From Hexactinellida sp. DTS-2022 (taxonomy: Eukaryota; Porifera; Hexactinellida): a DNA stretch of 64,000 nt. The DNA lies in NCBI GenBank assembly GCA_028753945.1, contig JAPNXP010000001.1, positions 4,082,501 through 4,146,500 on the forward strand. Direction: 5' to 3'. A program made the translations under genes and the position numbers. Of the stretch, positions 24,756 to 52,187 are shown in pieces (the stretch's first letter is position 1; each line of letters begins with the position of its first letter). The notes under the pieces are model-generated. The model did no database searches. It saw only the letters and a list, made by a program, of their open reading frames with translations, and had not been told where the DNA came from.

Positions 24756-26719
24756 GGTAATCGGACACTTCGTCGCTTGGACACTTCGTCGCCGGACATT
24801 TCGTCCCGGACACTTCGTCGCTTGGACAATTCGTCGACGGACACTTCGTCGCTCGGACACTTCGTCGCTCGGAAAACTCAATTTCAGATAGTATTTGATT
24901 ATTCCATTCGCTGGATATATCAGGTGTCAATCTGCAACTTTATTGAAAACACCTAAATTTGTTTTTGTTTTGTCTTGCTAATAAATACTTTAATGGATTC
25001 AAAATGAGAAATTGAGAGTAGTATAAAATAGGAACAAATCAAAAATTTTTAATCAAATCAAAAATTCTTGATCTACTTTCTTCACCACTTTTTTCGGATG
25101 GCTACACCTTTAGTTATTCAGATTACCAAGACAAGCAAAAATAAAGAGAAAGCTTATATTGAAGGATTTTTGTATACTCTTAACAAATGTTCTTCCCAAC
25201 TCTCACATTGGGTTTGCGAAAAACGAGGCACTTGTAAAGCCCGTCTAACTACTAATCTTCGAATTGTTGTCAAACCCTGCCAAATAGCTGATATCAACTC
25301 ATCTCATTCACATGGACCAGATACTACAAGATTTGAAATTGTTCAAAGTATTTCTCAAATGAAAGATCGAGCTACAAATTCTGAAGACAGTACGAGATCA
25401 ATATTAGCCAGTGGAGTGGGAACAATGAGTAACTCCAGTATCGCTGCGCTACCAAGATTCGATTCTGTGAAACGTACAATACGCCGTGTAAAATCCTCTA
25501 CGACAGATAACGTTAGTAATACTACATTGTTGGAAGAAATCATTATACCAGAGAAATACAAATATACTCTAAAAGGACACCCATTCTTGTTATTTGATTC
25601 AGGGATTGGGGATATAAATAGACTCATGATCTTTGGGAGTCCTAATATGCTCTCACTATTGCGTGATGCAAGCAATTGGTTTGCTGACGGAACTTTTAAA
25701 GTTGTACCCAGCCAATTCTACCAGATGTATACAATTCATTGCGAAAAGGATGGATATACTATCCCCTGCATATATGCGCTAATGAAAGACAAGCGTGAAT
25801 CGACATACGATAAACTCTTCAAACAATTAATCCAACTTGAACCCGGATTGAACCCATCACATATCATGGTTGATTTTGAAAAAGCTACGCACAATGCTTT
25901 GGAAGAAAATTTCATTGCAGTAATTTCTGGGTGTTTTTTCCATTTAGCGCAAAATGTTTTCCGCCAAATTCAATCAAATGGGTTGACAGCACGATATCTA
26001 GAAGATGAAGAATTTTCAATTCAAATGAAAATGCTTCCGAGTCTTGCATTTGTGCCCGAACACGATGTTATTGATTCTTTTACGTTGCTTATGGCGGATT
26101 TTCCTGAATCAGCTAAAGGTATAGCAGAATATTTTGAGATCAACTATATCGGCAGAAAACTCCCTGACCAAAGCAGAAGGGTACCTCCCTTTCCTATAAG
26201 GATATGGAACATGTATGAGCGAGCAACATCAAGATCAGCCAGAACCAACAATTCAGTTGAAGGATGGCATAACGCATTCTCTTCTGGAATAAACTGTTCT
26301 CATCCTAATATTGGTAGGCTCTTAAGTTACTTTCAACGAGAACAGTCGTTACAAGAAGCAATACTAGTAAAATGGGAAACAGGGGAAATTCCAAAGATGT
26401 CAAAACTTAGCAAATGCAGAAATGAAAGAATAATGAGCCTAGTAGCAGATTATGAGCACAGGGACATCTTCACTTACTTGAAAGGAATCGCTTATAATTT
26501 TCAATTCTAACATATTTCATACTTTCCTATTATCTCAATGTGTTTTCATTCGTATTCATTATTAAATATATCTCTTTTACATAACCTTCGGGGACCAAAT
26601 ATCCGGGCGACGAAGTGTCCGAGCGACGAAGTGTCCGTCGACGAATTGTCCAAGCGACGAAGTGTCCGGGACGAAATGTCCGGCGACGAAGTGTCCAAGC
26701 GACGAAGTGTCCGCCATTC
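24756..26719 (+). mobile_element. complete MULE (Mutator-like) transposon
   Basis: 1964 bp bounded by the 9-bp direct repeat GTTTTCTTG (24747-24755 and 26720-26728), the target-duplication length typical of Mutator elements. After six weakly conserved terminal bases on each side, inverted repeats of 112 bp match almost perfectly (24762-24873 and 26602-26713). Each is built of seven 14-16-bp units of the form GGACACTTCGTCGCTT, likely transposase-binding sites. Between them is a single long transposase gene. Its intact frame, near-identical TIRs and exact target duplication make it a recently mobile, possibly still autonomous copy. Confidence 0.93.
25098..26510 (+). CDS. MULE transposase with FLYWCH-type zinc finger
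   Basis: A 470-aa protein from ATG 25098; the ten codons upstream open with TTG. An N-terminal FLYWCH-like finger shows F-L-Y, then W-V-C, a second Cys in GTCKARL and His-x-His (SHSHG). The catalytic core has the DDE pattern: Asp in WFADGTF, Asp in MVDFEKA, then the C/H signature GCFFHLAQNVFRQIQ, and Glu in NNSVEGWH. It would cut and reinsert DNA bearing the flanking 112-bp repeats. AT-rich codon use differs from the GC-rich housekeeping genes, as expected for a mobile element. No stop or frameshift interrupts it. Confidence 0.92.
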   Translation: MATPLVIQITKTSKNKEKAYIEGFLYTLNKCSSQLSHWVCEKRGTCKARLTTNLRIVVKPCQIADINSSHSHGPDTTRFEIVQSISQMKDRATNSEDSTRSILASGVGTMSNSSIAALPRFDSVKRTIRRVKSSTTDNVSNTTLLEEIIIPEKYKYTLKGHPFLLFDSGIGDINRLMIFGSPNMLSLLRDASNWFADGTFKVVPSQFYQMYTIHCEKDGYTIPCIYALMKDKRESTYDKLFKQLIQLEPGLNPSHIMVDFEKATHNALEENFIAVISGCFFHLAQNVFRQIQSNGLTARYLEDEEFSIQMKMLPSLAFVPEHDVIDSFTLLMADFPESAKGIAEYFEINYIGRKLPDQSRRVPPFPIRIWNMYERATSRSARTNNSVEGWHNAFSSGINCSHPNIGRLLSYFQREQSLQEAILVKWETGEIPKMSKLSKCRNERIMSLVADYEHRDIFTYLKGIAYNFQF

Positions 26720-27626: not shown

Positions 27627-28114
27627 GTAGTATAATATAGTAATATAGTTACAGCAAATGAGAATTGGTCCGGACAAGCTAGTGTCATAGTTGATCCTGT
27701 TTCCCCATTTTTTTTTTCCACCGGCCGAACATTATTTCCTAGCAAATCCTGTTCGGGAGAAAATATTTCCCTTGGATAACAAAGGCATTTTTATTCTCCA
27801 TCCATTAGGACCCCCAGGCCGAAGCTGGGCTCTTTAACGAAGGCCGGGAAAAGAAGATTCCCTAAAGGGGAACAACATTTCCCGGAACTATTGTTCGGGG
27901 GACCAATTATTCCTAGGAACTATTGTTCGCGGGGAGCAATTATTCCTAGGAAATATTGTTCGCGGGGAGCAATTATTCCTAGGAACTATTGTTCGCGGGG
28001 AGCAATTATTCCTAGGAAATATTGTTCCGGGGATCAATTTTCACGGCGGAACAGGCTCTCCTCTGTCACCGGACCAGCTGGACCACGTGCTACTCCTATG
28101 ATTTTATATATATA
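27627..28114. repeat. 33-bp tandem repeat and flanks
   Basis: About 27880-28035 consists of four to five copies of a 33-bp unit starting GGAACTATTGTTCGCGGGGA and ending CAATTATTCCTA; alternate units carry AAATATT in place of ACTATT. Degenerate units extend left to about 27740. Because 33 is a multiple of three, one frame shows an 11-residue repeat, but no start context or conservation supports a protein. TTCC and GGAA blocks let each unit fold on itself. Confidence 0.8.
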
Positions 28115-28250
28115 TACAGTCAGGTTCTTTTATTATGAACATTCAAGGGACCAAAAATTGTGTTCATAATAGAGAGACTTCATAATAAGCGAACTCAATT
28201 TATAATACAAACCCTATGAAATTTATTAATTTGGGACCACGGGGGCTAGG
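28115..28250. mobile_element. left part of CAGTCAGGT MITE, cut by a hAT insertion
   Basis: Starts TACAGTCAGGTTC and follows the 1760-1957 copy closely through TTGGGACC. It stops where the hAT element at 28251 begins. I cannot find its right end after 28885, so it is truncated or interrupted. Confidence 0.75.
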
Positions 28251-30603: not shown

Positions 30604-32176
30604 AATTATTTTGAATTTTATATTAGCAGTATCTTGTATCTTCTGTATATGTGTATGTTCTGTATTACCATACAAATGTAACTGATCAAGTGTTTTCGGT
30701 TGGTATAGAATATCTGTTAATTAATACGAAATTCCAGTTAATAAGAACACTATTTCAGTTCCCTTGAAAGCCTTTTCAATACTTCAAATGATATTGGTTA
30801 ATACGAATTCCGGATAAGGCGAACGCTCTTTGACGATCCCCTAGTGTTCGTACAAACGAGGTTCTACTGTAATGTCTCCCCCTCAATTATACAAAAATAC
30901 TGTAATAATAGACGTTATATTTCTCTTTGTCACTAAATATGTTATTATTAAATTAGTCGGAGCAGCAGAGCACTAATCCCAGACGCAGTTGCCATCTGCA
31001 CTATATGCTCTGTTTCATGTATTAATTAACAACTTTGTGTGATGTCAACTACCTCCCTCTTGTGGCTAATAGCTTCCATGTAGTTCTGTATAGTGTCTAG
31101 CTAGTTAATTAATAACACTACTCTGTTATTGATTTACCATTCTTGGAATTCATAAGTATATTATCAAATCAACTAATAAAATTTTATTTAGCAAAAATTT
31201 GTATATTCAAATCAATAGGGCCTTTTATATCTACAATCGAAACCGGTTTTTTCTAACTCCGTTTTTTTCTAACTAATCGGTTATTTCTAGCTAACTATTT
31301 ATTCAAAATGTGTAAGAAATTCCAATTTTGTTTTATTTTCAATCGGATTTTTCTTACTTTATTTGCATGCAAAGAATTGGTTAGAAAAACCTATTTCGAC
31401 TGTACTACTAATCGAGTTATAAGTTGGAGGGGAATAATTATTCGAGAGAATATAATTCAAGTTTCTGAATTTTCATTCTAGACTGAAAACTTTAATTAAT
31501 TAATTAACACTGAGCTAGCAAGAAGAGTTATATCAAATAACTTCCATTATTTTGTCGTAAATAGTATACAAACCAAGAATAAATCAAATATTTATAACTT
31601 ATCCATTAATTGCAAACTTGAGAGAAATCAGTCAGATTCGGACAAAAGACGTCTGGATATTCAGACAGTCCTTGCTCTATAGCCTTGATAAAATTACTTA
31701 TAAACCCACCAATCCGTATCATGCTACTACGCTCTAGCGATTGTAATTCTTATTAATATGTCAGATCTTTTCTATTAAACACTCAGCCTGCCTTAAATCT
31801 GGAATATTGGGACTCAGGGATATTATTATTTCTCAACATTGTTCTTCTGATGAGCTCCTCTGCTAACCCCCTTAAAATTATGTTTGCTGCCAATATAATA
31901 TTTATCTATATTTTCTTTTTGCGCTTATTCCTTGGGTATATCATAGATTAATTAACTAATTAATTAACCCACGTACCTTAATTAACACCATCAACAAAAA
32001 TTCACCAATTATCTTACCCTCAAACAATTTGAATACCACAAAATTATTTTGGTGTATATTTCATATTTGCATTAAAGTTAATAGTCTGGCAATGCAAATT
32101 AAATGTAGTAATTCGTGGAATACTGGAGAAATCCCCAAAACTTGGGTCTATATATTTCTTTTTCGCAAATGTCTAG
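30604..32176. other. gene-free interval with two MITEs
   Basis: Between the kelch gene and the secreted-protein gene. It holds a decayed MITE at about 30715-30871 (right end AACGAGGTTCTACTGTA, same family as 16852) and a better one at 31232-31404. The rest, including TTAATTAATTAA runs near 31490 and 31955, shows nothing else. Confidence 0.55.
31232..31404. mobile_element. MITE with TIR CAATCGAAACCGG / CCTATTTCGACTG
   Basis: 173 bp between TA dinucleotides, with an imperfect terminal inverted repeat (TACAATCGAAACCGGTTTTT against AAACCTATTTCGACTGTA) and repeated internal TTTTTCTAACT / TTAGAAAAA words. A decayed relative lies at about 11840-11930. Confidence 0.65.
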
Positions 32177-35100
32177 ATGGTTTCCACTCTCGGTGTTTGG
32201 GTTATCTTCTCTCTTATCTTGCTACCTCGGGTGTCGACAAGCAGTAACTACTTGATCTACCCCGGATCCACTTCTCCTCTCAATCTCACATGCGACCCCA
32301 GTACTCCCCCCGCCAGCATAGAAGGGTCCCCGTGTCTTGTAACAGCTGACACCAACACACTACTGTCTATCAGCATAATTGCTGGAGAAGTTACAAATGG
32401 CAGTAGTGAGATATTTCGCGCGCACCCATTGCTTGTAACCTGCTTACAGCGGTTCTGCTCTAAGCTCTCTTCCGTGCCGCACATCTTGCAGTTCTACCTG
32501 CGGGAAGAAGAAGGGCTGGCAGTAGACACGCCCGACTCCGCCGTAAACTCGGAGCTGCTGGCGCTACACAGGGCCGGACTGGCCGTATCTTTCGGCTTTT
32601 CCGGCACCTCGTTCCATACCCTGCTGCAGACAGCAGTGTCGCGGTGTCTAGACATATTCGCGGCTGGGGAGTTCTCAATGGGAGTTGTTCAGCTCAACGA
32701 ATCAATTGATCTGCAGCTTCGGCCTGACCGCCTGCACTTCTACCCAACCAGCATTAACGCTACATTCTTCGAGCTACTAGACGAAAGCCTATCGCTACGG
32801 ACTCTCCCCAACTGTCCTGCAGCCCCATTCCCAGCTAACTCATCCTACCCTCTCAACGGCTCCACCGCCGCGCAGGTAGTGGGGCAGGTGTACCAGCCGC
32901 TCTCCAGGAGCTCCCCGGAGTTCCCAGAGCTCCTGCAGTACCCGGGCACCAACATATCCTTCCACGGCTGCGCCAGCACAGTCACAAGCTACTCCGCCGA
33001 AGCCCGCTGCGCCACTCGCGTTATGTCATCCCGCATGTTTCGGCTGTTCAAAGTGCTGGCGGGCCTCCTCAAGGGTTCATCTTCTGAACTGTCAGTGGTG
33101 CAGAGCTGGTCTCCCAGCCCTTTCAATATCACATATCCCCAGTGCTACTCCTCTCCGCTCAACACCTCTCTCTTCTCAGAGGGCAGGGCTATGGTACTGG
33201 AGGCACTGGGCTCGCTGTCCCTATCCGCACTCGCCCATCTGTGTCGTTGTTCGGGATTTGATTACGTGTACAATGGTTGTGGTTACGTGCTGGTAGCAGT
33301 GCGGCACCAGCGGAGCACTCCTCCGCTCACTGTTGTGTTCCCAACCTCCCTGCTCCTGCCCGTGACCCCCTACGGAGCTATCGCGTCTCTCTACTTCACA
33401 CCGCCCTCCATCTCCTCCCTGTCCCCCCTCTTCGACTCGGACGGAATTAGAGGGCAGATGCTCTCACAGCAGTACTCAGTGGGTCAGCTCGCAGGCCCGG
33501 ACCGGTTCTTCAGGATGCACCCGGCGCTGGTGGGGTGTCTGGAGCTCGTAGCGGAGAAGTTGTCTGTGTACAGCCCCGCCTACTCTCTGCGCGTACTCCA
33601 GGCGTACTCCAGAGACAATTCCTCGCAGCAGGAGGACTTTACTACTGGGCTAGCTGTTCGTATCAACACTCAACCACAAGGTGCGTTCATTCAATACTAT
33701 TTACTTTTAGATATTACAAATGTTTACTTCATATTATTCTTACAACAGACTATCCTCTGCTCAATCTAACACTGATGGTTATTCGGAGCTGTGCCTCATA
33801 CGTGTCCCAGCAGCACAGCACTCTCAGGAGGCTACACTTGGGAATCTACTCCGACTCGCTCTATCTCGCTATTGCTACCAACTTCAGCGCCTGGAACCAG
33901 ACATACATCCCTGGTCTCTCAGATTCGTTCTACAGCTGGGCACGCTCTCGCTACATGGCTGGTCTCAGCGGCACCCTAGTCAACCCGTATAATCCGGACG
34001 CTGCATGTCTGAACACTATCCTCTCCTCGCCCCCTACCCCCTCCTACTCCTCTCCCTACTCCCTCCCTCGTGTCGTGTCATACCTCGCCAGCGTGCAGCC
34101 TAACAACTGTGTTTCTGATACCAACACTGAGTTCTGTAAGGAGAGCAAACCCTTCAGGGATAAGGCTATTTCTGAGCTCTTAGTCGTGAGTTTAACTACA
34201 AATTCCTTTATACATATATATTTAGCAATATTCTGACACATAGGGAATCAAAGGTATCTTTCGATATACAGTAGAACCTCAGTAGTACAAACACGGTTAA
34301 TACGAATTCCGGATAAGGCGAACGCATTTTGACAGTCATCTGGTGTTGTACCAACGAGGTACTACTGTATCTCTATCTATACTGCATTTATTAATATAAT
34401 AGACCAATAACCTCAAAGTTTTAATTGGGGGGGGCAATTTGTGTGTAAATTGGCACCCATATTTGTTTGAATATCTATCCTTTGTAATCTAGAATCTACA
34501 AACAACAATATGTAATCAAATATTTTTGAAAGAACAAATGATTTTTATTAGGTTAAGGGGTATTAACTTAAATGATTGACTGTACTAAGAAAATCAGAAA
34601 TGATCTGAAAATTAATGGATTTAAATGTGAAATGGTAATTCAATAATTGGATTCGAGCCTTTGATTCTCTAATAACGATATGTCAGACTGATAACTCAAA
34701 TTTATGATGATTTAATCGATTGGTCTAATTGATATTTCAGGAATCATCTGATTATAATGAGCTAAAAAATAAACTAAATTACTAATTTCTGACTCTGCAT
34801 TAACACAGGTGTGCGAGTACCAAAGGTTCATTGTTTTATATCATGATGTTTTAGTTACCTATTAATATAAATTAAATAAAGAATCATTATATTACAAGTT
34901 TAATTAATCGCTGATTAGTTCAAAATTGAAATGCAATTATTAAGTGTAACATACATTTCTCAACAGCTGCAGATTAATCATATGCCCTCTATAGTAGTAG
35001 CCTGGAAAACTAACAATAAATACAAATATTGTGTGTCATAATAGTATAAGTACGGTCAACTCTGTTTATGGGGTCATTTTCCAGGAACAGAATCATACCA

Positions 35101-36156
35101 ATAGAAGTTAACTTAATTACAAAAAAATCCGTTAATTTGGTCAAGTTTCGGCTAATCAGGTCAATGATATGTCAATTGTGTAATATTACATTTGCAAGAG
35201 TATTTTTAACACTTGTGAGTATGTTATATTCATATTAGGGCAGTATACGTATACGTACTATTAATAAATAGTTATACCCTAAAAATTGTATAATTTCGGT
35301 TAATTCGGTTCTCAGCTCCGCTTAATCGGGCCAAACTATTCGTTGGACCAAAGTGACCCGATTAAGCTTAAGCGGAGTTGACTATATTATTGTTGTGTAG
35401 ATAATGAAGCGCAAGCACTGGTCAGTCCCCTCCGGGGCTCTCACCAGTGCTCTCACCAGCTGCTTCAGTCTGTGCGCTACCTGCACGGAGGGAGACGTGT
35501 GGAGAGATAAGCTAGCCAACTGCGACAACCTGGTGCACTGGGCGCCATTCATGTTCATCTCAGAGCCTGACAACATGCACTTCTACGTAATGGAGAACAT
35601 GACGATGAAGGAGTACGCCTGCAGCGGCTCCAGGTCCTGCTTGGCCAAGTCCCCCATCTTTGCTGTGCTCGCTCCCACCGTAGAGTTCATATTCCGACCG
35701 AACCCAAACAAGGCTCAGGAGCTGTCTCTCTACTCAATGGCTGACAATCCTATCCCTGTGTACAAGCTGCTAGACACTGTGTTCGCGCTATCCGGAGCAG
35801 GCAACATCACTGTGTGGGTGTCTAACGAGAACGATCTGTTAGTGCTGAAGCCGGTGCTGCGCGTGCTGATGCTCTATAACCACAAAGTTACGTCTGTGGA
35901 TGTTCGTCTCTTCCAGTCCAGCCGTCTCTCAGCAGCACAGCGGCAGATGGACGGAAACATACACGACTGGACCTCCAACGGCTGCCCGGCTTACAGTCGT
36001 GACGTAGTTGCTCCCTACAGAATATCCATTGTGGATACCAGCACACGGGCCAGGAGGGATCTGCACCAGATAGTGGAGGGGAATAACTTCGGAGACTACC
36101 TCGCTATGAGATGGAAGTTTGCTGATAGAAGATGGATCGAAAAGCAAGTGTATTGA
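32177..36156 (+). CDS. secreted protein with tandem Hedgehog-N-like domains (unnamed)
   Basis: Exons 32177-33680, 33749-34185 and 35401-36156 (donors GTGCGT, GTGAGT; phases 1 and 0) join to 898 aa. Residues 1-21 are a signal peptide; no membrane anchor is evident, and many N-x-S/T sites and cysteines indicate an extracellular protein. I see three repeats: about 80-182, 280-376 and 444-544. Each has a helix (HPLLVTCLQRF, SSRMFRLFKVL, HPALVGCLELV), a strand, a G-x-A-V core (AGLAV, EGRAM, TGLAV) and a second helix and strand. Repeat 2 reads EGRAMV...LAHLCRCSGFDYV, close to the Hedgehog signalling-domain pattern EGRAVDI...LAVEAGFDWV, itself an M15-peptidase fold. Zinc ligands are lost except one His in repeat 1. 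The last 250 residues may hold a fourth, weaker unit. Domain assignment is inference; the name is unknown. Confidence 0.85.
34267..34369. mobile_element. short pogo-like MITE in intron 2
   Basis: 103 bp from TACAGTAGAACCTCAG to GAGGTACTACTGTA with internal AATACGAATTCCGGATAAGG. It belongs to the 16852 family and lies inside the second intron of the secreted-protein gene. Confidence 0.8.
35051..35386. mobile_element. 336-bp MITE in intron 2, TIR CGGTCAACTC
   Basis: From TACGGTCAACTCTG to CGGAGTTGACTATA. Interior GGTTAATTCGG and CCGCTTAATCGGG words match the solo end at 19158. It ends only 14 bp before exon 3 (35401), so it supplies most of the sequence upstream of the 3' splice site. Confidence 0.75.
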
Positions 36157-36362: not shown

Positions 36363-38197
36363 ATGTTATGGGAGATGTTGTCAATTGAGAGATGTTGTCG
36401 AATCGCCAACATCTCCCGCGGGAGATGTTGGCGATTTACCATTTATGGCTTCAGTTGTTTATAATTATGGTTTCTATTATTATAATACATATATTGTATA
36501 TTATTAGATAGCAAACTTTTAATTAGTTATCTAATTTATCATATATGTAGATAATTAACCTGCAAAAAACAAAGGTTTATCTTGTATATTCCGGCTGCAA
36601 ATTGATTCCGGTCATAAATTGTTCATATATCAAATTAGTTTCGGATTAAATTTAGAGTGTAAATCAATTATATGGCCATGGGCCTGTCCAGATACAACTA
36701 CGTACCATCATAATCAAATTTGAAAACTTTGCTTAGATTCAGTTTAAATGAAAATCATGTACCCTCGGCCTCTGGGAAGTAGTAAATACGTATTATCTGT
36801 GTATACGTACTAACTGAATTAACCTTAGAAATAGGGCTTATACTTTCGCGATTTCGGATTAAGATGCTATCTAATCTCGGGATTATTAATATAAGGTATG
36901 TTACCGTATGTATGATGTTTACTAGATTAATATTAAACATAGTCGTCTTTATTATACCAGCTTAGTTCTTAAACAGTAAGTATGAAAACGATTTCGAATT
37001 TACAAATTTCTAATTGGAATATAGTGGACTCTAGTAGAGATGCACCGGATCCACTTTTTTGAGATCCGGTCGGATCTTGTGCATCCTTAAACTATCGTTA
37101 TAATGAAATGCTTGGGATCTGTAAATTCCTGCATTTAGTGCTTTGGGGAAATCTCCATTCCGTTGAAAGCAGTTATTTCGTTATATCCGACTTCGTTACA
37201 ACGGGAGTTCACTGCACTTTATTTATTGTTGTCAGTGACACTTTGTGACGAAATGGGCAAACAAGTTGTCAAGTATTATACTTCACCTAAAGACTAGCTT
37301 TCGACAAATATACTGGTTAATGCATTTGCTGAATAGAAATTGTTTACTGGCACATAAGATAATGTTTGTTGTTAAGTTGAAGCAACTAATAATAACAGAT
37401 TTTAATGAATAAACGAGACCGCGTAGCGGTTGAGTGATCATGCAATTGAAATTTTGAATACTTATTCAATGTTACAACTGTTGTTAAGTCAATTAATTAA
37501 CACAGAAAAACTATTAACCAATGAAGTATTGGACATTGAGATTTAGAAAGAAATCCCGGTATTCAATTCCCAGAAATAGTATGGATTCTAACCCCTATTT
37601 ACATAAAATATATTTGTATTTTCACTACTATTTTGTAAATTGGTTTAAAAAGTTCTACTTAAGTGTTGCATAAATAAACCGTCTAAGTGTGATTACTGGT
37701 ATAAATCAAGGCGGAACGAATTTGTTATGGAATAGACAAGCCCATGACCATAGAATTGATTTACACTCTAAATTTAATTTTGATAAATTAACAATTTATG
37801 AACGGGATCAATTTGCAGCGGGAACAAATATGACAAAACAAAATGAACAAAGTCGTAGATACTTTTCGAAGATATTCTAAGTTGTTTAAAGATGGGTCTT
37901 TCCAACACCCATGCAAAATTTCAAGTCTGTAGCTCTTAGCAGTTCCTCAATCAATTCCGGACAAACAATTTAAAAAAATACAAGATAAACCTTAGTATTT
38001 TGCGGGTTAATTATCTACGTATATGAGAAATTAGATAACTAAATTAAAAGTTTGCTATCTAATAATATATATGTATTATAATAATAGAAACCATAATTAT
38101 AAACAACTGAAGCCATAATGGTAAATCGCCTACATCTCCCGCGGGAGATGTTGGCGATTCGACAACATCTCTCAATTGACAACATCTCCCATAACAT
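36363..38197. mobile_element. 1.8-kb long-inverted-repeat (foldback-like) element
   Basis: The left arm (36363 to about 36695) and right arm (about 37720 to 38197) match in inverted orientation; the right arm has about 130 extra bases. Both outer ends read ATGTTATGGGAGATGTTGTC. Each arm contains a 36-bp palindrome centred on CCCGCGGG (perfect at 36401-36436, one mismatch at 38124-38159). The core contains a Tc1/pogo-type MITE fragment (about 37090-37215, CGTTATAATGAAATG family) and a CGCGTAGCGG palindrome at 37416, but no transposase. No clear target duplication. Confidence 0.75.
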
Positions 38198-50608: not shown

Positions 50609-52187
50609 TAATCTATAATATTAAAAACTTTATTGTTGTTTGTTTGTTCGGATTGTATTAAAGAGATAGGGGATAGTAACCGAATTTATTAAACTAACTT
50701 CCAAATGTTATTATAGGTAAACAAGTATGCTGAATTTGAATTTCACATTAAAATATTATAATATGAATTTTTAGTGTTGTTGTTTACTAAAACAGGTAAA
50801 CAAATTAATGCAAATTCAAAATGAACCTAGAGGCAAAAAAATTAGTTGTTGTCGGTTGCTACATCATGTTCTGCTGGTAAGTAGCGGAGTGCGAATGATT
50901 TGACTGAAAGGATCGCCTAATATTTGCCTGTGGCATTGTAGTTACATACTTACGTAAATTGTGAGTTAATCTATATTATTAAATCTCGATTGTTGTGTGT
51001 TTGTGTGTGTGTTTGTTTGTCCGGATTGTATTAAAGTGATGGGGGAATAGAAACCGCATTTATATATGAGATATAAACTAACTTTCAAATGTTATAATTG
51101 GTAAACAAAAGTTATAAGGGGTAAACAAGTATGCTGATTTCGAATTTCGCGTTTATAACTTTCTCATATTAATATTTGTTGTTGTTGTTTACACAAAATA
51201 GGTAAACAAATTAATGAAATTCAAAATCAACCTAGAAGTTTGCTTTCAACGGGTATTATAGGTAAACAAGTATGCTGATTTCGAATTTCGCGTTTATAAA
51301 TTTCTCATCTTAATATTTGTTGTTGTTGTTTACACAAAATAGGTAAACAAATTAATGAAATTCAAAATCAACCTAGAAGTTTGCTTTCAACGGGTATTAT
51401 AGGTAAACAAGTATGCAGAACACGAATTTCGCATTTAAAATTTTCTAATATGAATTTTTTTGTTGTTGTTGTTTACACAAATAGGTAAACAAATTAATGA
51501 AAATTCAAAATCAACCTAGAAGTTAGCTTTCAACGGGTATTATAGGTAAACAAGTATGCTGATTTCGAATTTCGCGTTTATAAATTTCTCATCTTAATAT
51601 TTGTTGTTGTTGTTTACACAAAATAGGTAAACAAATTAATGAAATTCAAAATCAACCTAGAAGTTTGCTTTCAACGGGTATTATAGGTAAACAAGTATGC
51701 TGATTTCGAATTTCGCGTTTACAAATTTCTAATGTGAATATTTGTTGTTGTTGTTTACACACAAAATAGGTAAACAAATTAATGAAAATTCAAAATCAAC
51801 CTAGATGTTAGCTTTCAACGGGTATTATAGGTAAACAAGTATGCAGAACACGAATTTCGCATTTAAAATTTTCTAATATGAATTTTTTTGTTGTTGTTGT
51901 TTACACAAATAGGTAAACAAATTAATGAAAATTCAAAATCAACCTAGAAGTTAGCTTTCAACGGGTATTATAGGTAAACAAGTATGCTGAACACGATTTT
52001 CGCGTTTAAAAATTTAGAATATGAAAAACAAGTTAAAACATGGAAATCTTATATAGGGATCTATATAACGTCCCTTTCTACCATTTTCCATGGCAGAAGG
52101 GTGAGGAGTAAGGCCGCATAGCGGCCGTTAACTGAGGTGCGTAGCACCGATCTGTCGCAAAGCGACCGAGACCGAAGGGCTCGTTAA
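50609..52187 (+). mobile_element. Helentron/DINE-like non-autonomous element
   Basis: About 1.6 kb. Two starts reading ATCTATAATATTAAA (50611) and ATCTATATTATTAAA (50973) are each followed by TTGTTTGTTTGTC/TCGGATTGTATTAAAG. A central array of about 142-bp repeats follows. The right end has three short palindromes in a row, GGCCGCATAGCGGCC, GGTGCGTAGCACC and GTCGCAAAGCGAC, then CGAAGGGCTCGTTAA. A 5' TCTATATTATTAAA-type start, central tandem repeats and 3' hairpins are the architecture of Helentron-derived elements such as DINE-1. The class is inference; an inverted piece in DRC9 intron 2 confirms mobility of the right end. Confidence 0.65.
51120..52015 (+). repeat. tandem repeat, about 142 bp, six-plus units
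   Basis: Units begin GGTAAACAAGTATGC at 51120, 51261, 51402, 51545, 51686, 51830 and 51973 (spacing 141-144 bp), with an outlying copy at 50716. Each unit carries TTGTTGTTGTTTACAC, AGGTAAACAAATTAATG and CTTTCAACGGGTATTATA. Two unit subtypes alternate (CTGATTTCGAATTTCGCG against CAGAACACGAATTTCGCA), suggesting duplication of a two-unit block. Confidence 0.9.

Follow-up and report, generated by a model that had tools for sequence, protein, structure and literature searches.

The gene at positions 32177–36156 on the + strand of a 64,000 nt stretch of the Hexactinellida sp. DTS-2022 genome (GenBank assembly GCA_028753945.1, contig JAPNXP010000001.1; coordinates 4,082,501 to 4,146,500), the whole of which is referred to here as the window, consists of three coding exons and encodes a product of 898 or 899 amino acids (aa). 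Of three units recognised in the product and numbered from its N-terminus, unit 2 is, by its sequence, a Hedgehog N-terminal (Hedge) domain, unit 3 is probably one, and unit 1 has an indirect link to Hedgehog, through unit 3 alone. On balance, we favour a reading in which the product is secreted and glycosylated and its metal-free Hedge (M15-like) domains form a tandem array, well preserved in unit 2 and diverged in the other two units. A C-terminal region follows the array, and the protein would act by extracellular binding.

Unit 2 (aa ~216–378; coordinates 32822..33310, + strand) was examined in a Pfam search using 24736 models and E-values up to 10, with HMMER filters dropping most matches above ~0.1. 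The sole match of the whole protein was to PF01085 (HH_signal; E 2.4e-4), between aa 216–370 and model positions 17–157 of 161, and this was also the sole match for exon 1. A piece of unit 2 starting at aa ~245 had no Pfam match because the domain starts earlier, and the start at aa 280 given for this repeat in an earlier note on the sequence is replaced by one at ~216. A second Hedge profile was built without Pfam from 18 sequences, namely human Sonic hedgehog (Shh), Drosophila Hedgehog (Hh) and 16 bacterial Hedgehogs (bacHh), the last comprising one rhizobial plasmid protein and 15 Hedgehogs from genome contigs. This profile matched aa 231–373 (model 12–140 of 144) with an independent E-value (i-E) of 6e-8 as a single target and 1.6e-5 among the 637 open reading frames (ORFs) of 40 aa or more in the window. 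The score of 25 bits was not reached by any of 1000 shuffled sequences (maximum 3.5) or by any of 395 tiles, overlapping one another, that were cut from the remaining ORFs of the window (maximum 5.1). No second Hedge gene was found in the window, as no other of the 637 ORFs fell below E 3.8 with two Hedge profiles.

Aligned to Shh, unit 2 shares 26% identity, and S-x-x-F-x-x-L, an LA helix, SL-x-x-EGRA and GFDxV are among the features common to unit 2, Shh and fly Hh. The hhalign probability of unit 2 against Hedgehog was 96. When exon 1 was modelled with AlphaFold using 13 bacterial rows, the predicted local distance difference test (pLDDT) score of unit 2 was 85–95 in 10 of 17 ten-residue blocks and 55–75 in the remaining 7, and all 38 PDB matches of the unit 2 model with E<=0.001 in Foldseek were Hedgehog N-domains (target-normalised template modelling score 0.69–0.81). 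The proposal in the earlier note that the second repeat is a relative of Hedgehog-N is therefore strongly supported by Pfam, by the separately built profile and by the fold comparison, the last not being independent of the homology call.

The metal sites of Shh are not retained in unit 2. At the zinc ligands His140, Asp147 and His182 of human Shh, unit 2 has F, V and L in two alignments, and at the calcium ligands E89, E90, D95, E126, D129 and D131 it has A, E, T, Q, S and S, such that five of six are changed. The zinc residues used here agree with PMC11266112, and the calcium residues agree with PMC8052667 in mouse numbering. Insertions of ~9 and ~10 residues are present in the two metal loops of unit 2, with one cysteine in each, and a disulphide replacing the metal is a possible candidate feature. 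With the metal ligands gone, unit 2 offers no grounds for expecting peptidase chemistry. In unit 3, neither the first zinc His nor the Asp is present in either alignment. In unit 1, the register chosen by the automatic alignment places EEGLAVDT on EGRAVDI of Shh, with the Asp kept and the His lost, whereas the register of the earlier note, LHRAGLAVSF, retains the His but not the Asp and by eye comes nearer to the arrangement of helix and strands that is expected; the triad of unit 1 is incomplete in either. The earlier view that the repeats are free of zinc thus holds fully for unit 2, for two of the ligands (first His, Asp) in unit 3, and as an incomplete triad in unit 1, but the statement that the Asp is replaced in all three repeats and that only the first keeps the His depends on the register. 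An active peptidase was also considered, and was rejected on account of the absence of the zinc triad from unit 2 and its incompleteness in units 1 and 3.

Unit 1 (aa ~60–190; coordinates 32354..32746, + strand) is a diverged relative of unit 3 (aa ~424–545). The latter spans the first intron, with a helix, a strand and a G-LAV strand in the exon 1 part (aa ~424–501; coordinates 33446..33680, + strand) and a helix and the final strands in the exon 2 part (aa ~502–545; coordinates 33749..33879, + strand). Units 1 and 3 matched each other in a pairwise blastp comparison with E 3e-6, over the helix and next strand, and profile comparison gave 13.9 bits for unit 1 with unit 3 (shuffle maximum 12.5) and 13.6 bits for the reverse (maximum 12.0), scores that none of 20000 shuffles reached in either direction. 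The connection to unit 2 is weaker, as the profile of units 1 and 3 scored unit 2 at 6.9 bits and 23 of 20000 shuffles were as good. Hence, of the three internal repeats described previously, the first and third are related while the link to the second is weak, and the HP-LV-CL helix motif thought to be shared by all is literal in units 1 and 3 but not in unit 2. Because BLAST of the whole protein against itself, at E up to 1, returned the identity match alone, the repeats are visible only in focused comparisons.

The Hedge profile matched unit 3 in the expected register (helix, strand, G-x-AV) with 6.5 bits, which was matched or beaten by 0 of 1000 and 3 of 20000 shuffles and by 0 of the 395 tiles. 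When this profile was extended with units 2 and 3, the score of unit 1 was equalled by 7 of 1000 shuffles. Segment-by-profile comparisons were made in sets of 42 and 14, self matches counted; the 395 tiles overlap, and the tests with 20000 shuffles covered five pairs. The earlier description of the first and third repeats as diverged Hedgehog-N domains thus finds moderate backing for unit 3, and for unit 1 through unit 3 alone.

The N-terminus (aa 1–22; coordinates 32177..32242, + strand) resembles a signal peptide with a predicted cleavage site after it, and the 19-residue stretch with the highest hydropathy in the protein begins at aa 1 (mean 1.89). A membrane segment usually has a hydropathy of at least the threshold of 1.6, and in the 19-residue scan of the whole protein no clear membrane segment was found after the signal peptide, the next-highest value (1.54 at aa 727) being slightly below that threshold. 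The protein includes 15 N-x-S/T sequons and 24 Cys residues, and is probably secreted and probably glycosylated. The predicted mature N-terminus, SSNYLIYPGS, lacks a cysteine of the CGPGRG type, a motif present in the Shh and fly rows of the alignment. In Hedgehog, this N-terminal cysteine is the site of palmitoylation. No match to Hint, VWA or cadherin was found in the full protein or in the last 353 aa in the Pfam searches (E up to 10), in agreement with the earlier note on the absence of a Hint autoprocessing domain. As both Hint and the N-terminal cysteine are missing, there is no basis for lipidation of the Hedgehog type. A PDB sequence search with the whole protein yielded one chance match (E 2).

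The gene model comprises exon 1 (32177–33680), intron 1 (33681–33748; 68 nt, GT..AG, 25% GC), exon 2 (33749–34182 or 34185), intron 2 (34186..35400, or from 34183; ~1.2 kb, GT..AG, 31% GC) and exon 3 (35401–36156, including the stop codon), all on the + strand. The donor of intron 2 is at 34183 or 34186, and these two sites, 3 nt apart, both keep the frame at the second join, hence the product of 898 or 899 aa. When codon usage was modelled on 8 further window genes, the claimed frame was the best of six for each exon (0.68, 0.56 and 0.68 bits per codon), while both introns and both flanks scored negatively in all six frames. GC content is 0.53–0.57 in the exons and 0.25–0.32 in the introns and flanks. 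By these measures the gene is real and its exon joins are predicted; the three-exon gene with a signal peptide put forward earlier is upheld in part, in its frame, GT..AG sites, codon bias and hydrophobic start. A 53 bp segment of intron 2 (34295–34347) recurs upstream of the gene at 30796–30848 with 87% identity, and is a dispersed repeat.

No domain was assigned to the C-terminal region, which begins in the remainder of exon 2 (33880..34185, + strand) and continues through exon 3. The 353 aa of this region had no Pfam match, and the best match of exon 3 alone, to Alsin_RLD (E 0.15), was far under the cut-off. Calling the protein built of Hedgehog-N-like domains is therefore too strong, since ~350 C-terminal aa have no significant match. 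Further Hedge copies in the C-terminal half were considered on account of a likeness, seen by eye, of the exon 3 tail; they were rejected, as at least 130 of 1000 shuffles were as good for every pairing of three segments with eight profiles, and hhalign returned less than 1%.

Several results weigh against a tandem Hedge array. For unit 2 itself, the PF01085 score of 21.3 bits is 0.8 bit short of the curated cut-off of 22.1 (21.2 bits for exon 1 and 19.3 for a 185-aa domain piece), and the fold model depends on the homology call, since its alignment contained rows from bacterial Hedgehogs and the program had learned from known structures, so that it is a consistency check and not independent proof. 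Unit 1 had no significant direct match to Hedge; it scored 1.0 bit with the Hedge profile, which 10 of 1000 and 164 of 20000 shuffles and 25 of 395 tiles reached. Unit 3 is only a probable Hedge domain because its i-E was 0.014 as a single target and 20 for its exon 1 part among the 637 ORFs. In hhalign against Hedgehog, unit 3 reached 7%, unit 1 2% and the two jointly 17%, the joint value rising to 36% once unit 2 sits on the Hedgehog side, and in the AlphaFold model of exon 1 the blocks of both units were below pLDDT 60. With single-unit profiles, two short unrelated window ORFs scored 9.5 and 10.6 bits, ~3–4.5 bits below the match between units 1 and 3, and with the profile of units 1 and 3 one unrelated ORF of the 637 (8.6 bits) outscored unit 2. 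In addition, the single-sequence AlphaFold model of exon 3 was of low confidence (pLDDT 37.6), and the actual activity of the protein may reside in its last ~350 aa.

The poor scores of unit 1, and those of unit 3, are what favours an alternative in which the protein has a single Hedge domain, unit 2, accompanied by a pair of duplicated helix–strand modules of another fold, units 1 and 3, and the weak direct matches of unit 2 to units 1 and 3 (180 and 10 of 1000 shuffles as good, respectively) point the same way. However, the Hedge profile finds unit 3 in the expected register with a score that few shuffles and no tiles attain, unit 2 is picked up by the profile of the other two units, and by eye the three units have a common order of helix, strand, G-x-AV strand, helix and strand, such that a protein with one Hedge domain seems unlikely, though it deserves to be taken seriously. 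It is improbable that exon 3, or exons 2 and 3 together, are part of another gene and that the true protein is shorter. Such an artefact of the gene model would fit with an in-frame ATG one codon into exon 3, with exon joins that were derived from the DNA sequence and with the lack of a recognisable domain in exon 3 in Pfam, but both joins keep the frame at GT..AG sites and all exons have coding bias. The Hedge call is in any case independent of the joins, because units 1 and 2 lie entirely inside exon 1.

By the features tested, the protein is not a Hedgehog or a Hedgling, but it is a Hedge-domain protein. As in the Hedgehog proteins (Shh, Ihh, Dhh and Drosophila Hh), unit 2 aligns over nearly the whole PF01085 domain. 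Unlike them, the protein has no Hint/Hog match and no lipidation cysteine at the N-terminus, unit 2 is without zinc ligands, has changes in five of six calcium ligands and carries insertions in both metal loops, and related units occur in tandem with an additional C-terminal region. Hedglings, which are reported from sponges, cnidarians and choanoflagellates, resemble the protein in having a Hedge domain with an incomplete zinc motif and no Hint (PMC6027127, PMC4054682), but are large transmembrane proteins with an N-terminal Hedge domain beside VWA, followed by cadherins, features that were not detected here. The Hh domain stands beside VWA in all Hedglings and in five other Salpingoeca Hh-domain proteins (PMC4054682). 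Secreted Hh-domain proteins of Salpingoeca rosetta that are not Hedglings have, as here, a signal sequence, a Hedge domain and no transmembrane segment, but they are relatively small and their Hh domain is directly beside VWA (PMC4054682). Hedglets, described from molluscs, echinoderms and cephalochordates, have a Hedge-like domain that has lost catalytic residues, as in unit 2 (PMC8052667). Hedge domains without Hog are also reported from Nematostella and Oscarella (PMC2362128).

The bacterial Hedgehogs and the M15A D,D-peptidases belong to a family common with unit 2, and 16 of the former are in the profile that detects it. According to PMC6027127, bacHh proteins retain the residues of both the zinc and the calcium site. 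In the two bacHh rows that were checked the zinc triad is kept, with Asn as the sixth calcium ligand in one, whereas unit 2 keeps no residue of the triad. The bacterial relatives were found at 15 genome loci and on one plasmid, under record names that include Micromonospora, Alphaproteobacteria, Flavivirga, Algibacter, Phycisphaerae, Polyangiaceae and Paenibacillus, which is more groups than suggested by the about a dozen bacteria of PMC6027127. In the papers cited here, Hedge domains are described as single units, fused to Hint, located beside VWA or ending larger bacterial proteins. A tandem Hedge protein was not described in the titles and beginnings of abstracts listed in literature searches, the scope of which leaves out most subscription papers.

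The occurrence of Hedglings in sponges, choanoflagellates and cnidarians, their incomplete catalytic motif, the Hedge–VWA pairing that unites all of them with five other choanoflagellate proteins (PMC4054682, PMC6027127, PMC8052667) and the loss of catalytic residues in Hedglets also make it conceivable that the protein is a diverged relative of Hedgling or Hedglet, with a VWA or adhesion domain that is unrecognisable in the C-terminal region. This is rather unlikely, as neither VWA nor cadherin was matched by the full-length protein or by its last 353 aa within the limits of the search given above, no clear transmembrane segment is present and the units are in tandem. A true Hedgehog-type ligand of a Patched-like receptor, acting without lipid, metal or autoprocessing, would have a parallel in three small Salpingoeca rosetta Hh-domain proteins that carry a signal sequence, lack a transmembrane domain and have been suggested as possible secreted ligands (PMC4054682), and a review records Smoothened in Hexactinellida and Gli in Porifera, yet lists the pathway as absent there (PMC9695228). 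However, the N-terminal cysteine peptide is missing here, and in Shh it is to the 22 residues at the N-terminus that Patched binding is ascribed (PMC8052667); and the changes at five of the six calcium ligands of unit 2 also speak against such a ligand, which is considered very unlikely.

For the favoured secreted tandem Hedge glycoprotein, the chain would be exported from the cell, would not be able to hydrolyse peptides and would undergo neither autoprocessing nor lipidation. Each pseudo-active-site face may then serve as a surface that binds a protein or glycan, and avidity could be gained from the tandem arrangement of the units. As HIP, inhibitory antibodies and peptides derived from Patched are all bound by Shh at its pseudo-active site (PMC11266112), and as Drosophila Hh is functional although it lacks the zinc motif (PMC6027127), we infer a binding role, the likeliest being that of an extracellular matrix or cell-surface binding protein and not that of a classic lipid-modified morphogen.

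The presence of one clear and two probable or possible units without detectable VWA or Hint suggests that the Hedge module may also have spread through tandem duplication once the metal sites were lost. A bolder proposal is that, in an animal lineage lacking classic Hedgehog, the part of an extracellular signal or of a receptor partner is played by a tandem Hedge protein that is free and carries neither lipid nor metal; this is improbable. If it were true, Hedge domains would have had a role in animal signalling or matrix that was independent of Hint, of fusion to VWA and cadherin, and of lipid modification. In hosts reported to have Smoothened and Gli but not Hedgehog, the protein would be a candidate for the missing extracellular partner, and orthologues across sponges or other early animals, if they exist, would allow a direct test of the roles of Hedge domains before or beside the Hedgehog pathway.

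The neighbours of the gene are ordinary eukaryotic genes, with several domains located inside single long ORFs. They encode a protein kinase, a short-chain dehydrogenase, an alpha-adaptin with best PDB scores against AP-2 alpha chains, an FGGY kinase, a kelch protein, NAP, two oxygenases, an E1 dehydrogenase, a GTPase, GNAT and bromodomain proteins, TCTP, a CoA transferase and a MULE transposase. The mean GC content of the window is ~0.39 and the spacers are AT-rich. The gene density, the many genes made of one ORF and the AT-rich spacers are compatible with a glass sponge and, probably, with a compact early-animal genome. For one glass sponge, 1.59 introns per gene and spacers of 2 kb are reported (PMC10280926), and another has 12,409 single-exon transcripts alongside 19,578 genes, compared to 17,172 with 32,309 in Sycon; many single-exon transcripts are found in Amphimedon too (PMC10282587). 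Rfam and tRNA scans were empty. Searches of viral contigs gave 11 and 41 pattern matches, none of them a relative, in two protein scans, and 0 matches in a scan for the repeat pattern.

Repeated sequences were also seen in the window. A large inverted-repeat element, with arm blocks of 28–81 nt that are 83–100% complementary, is located immediately downstream of the gene (36363–38197); no ORF of at least 100 aa lies inside it, while two overlap its ends, and it is perhaps a non-autonomous terminal-inverted-repeat or fold-back element. The MULE transposase, which carries a FLYWCH finger (ORF 25053–26507), lies between two tandem arrays of a 16-bp unit in inverted orientation, and this region (24761–26713) looks like a complete MULE-type DNA transposon. 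A 33-bp tandem repeat in 4.8 copies (27884–28039) lies within an ORF that encodes a repetitive peptide (27780–28169), and a satellite-like array with 6.4 copies of a 141-bp unit and ~91% matches is found at 51120–52025.

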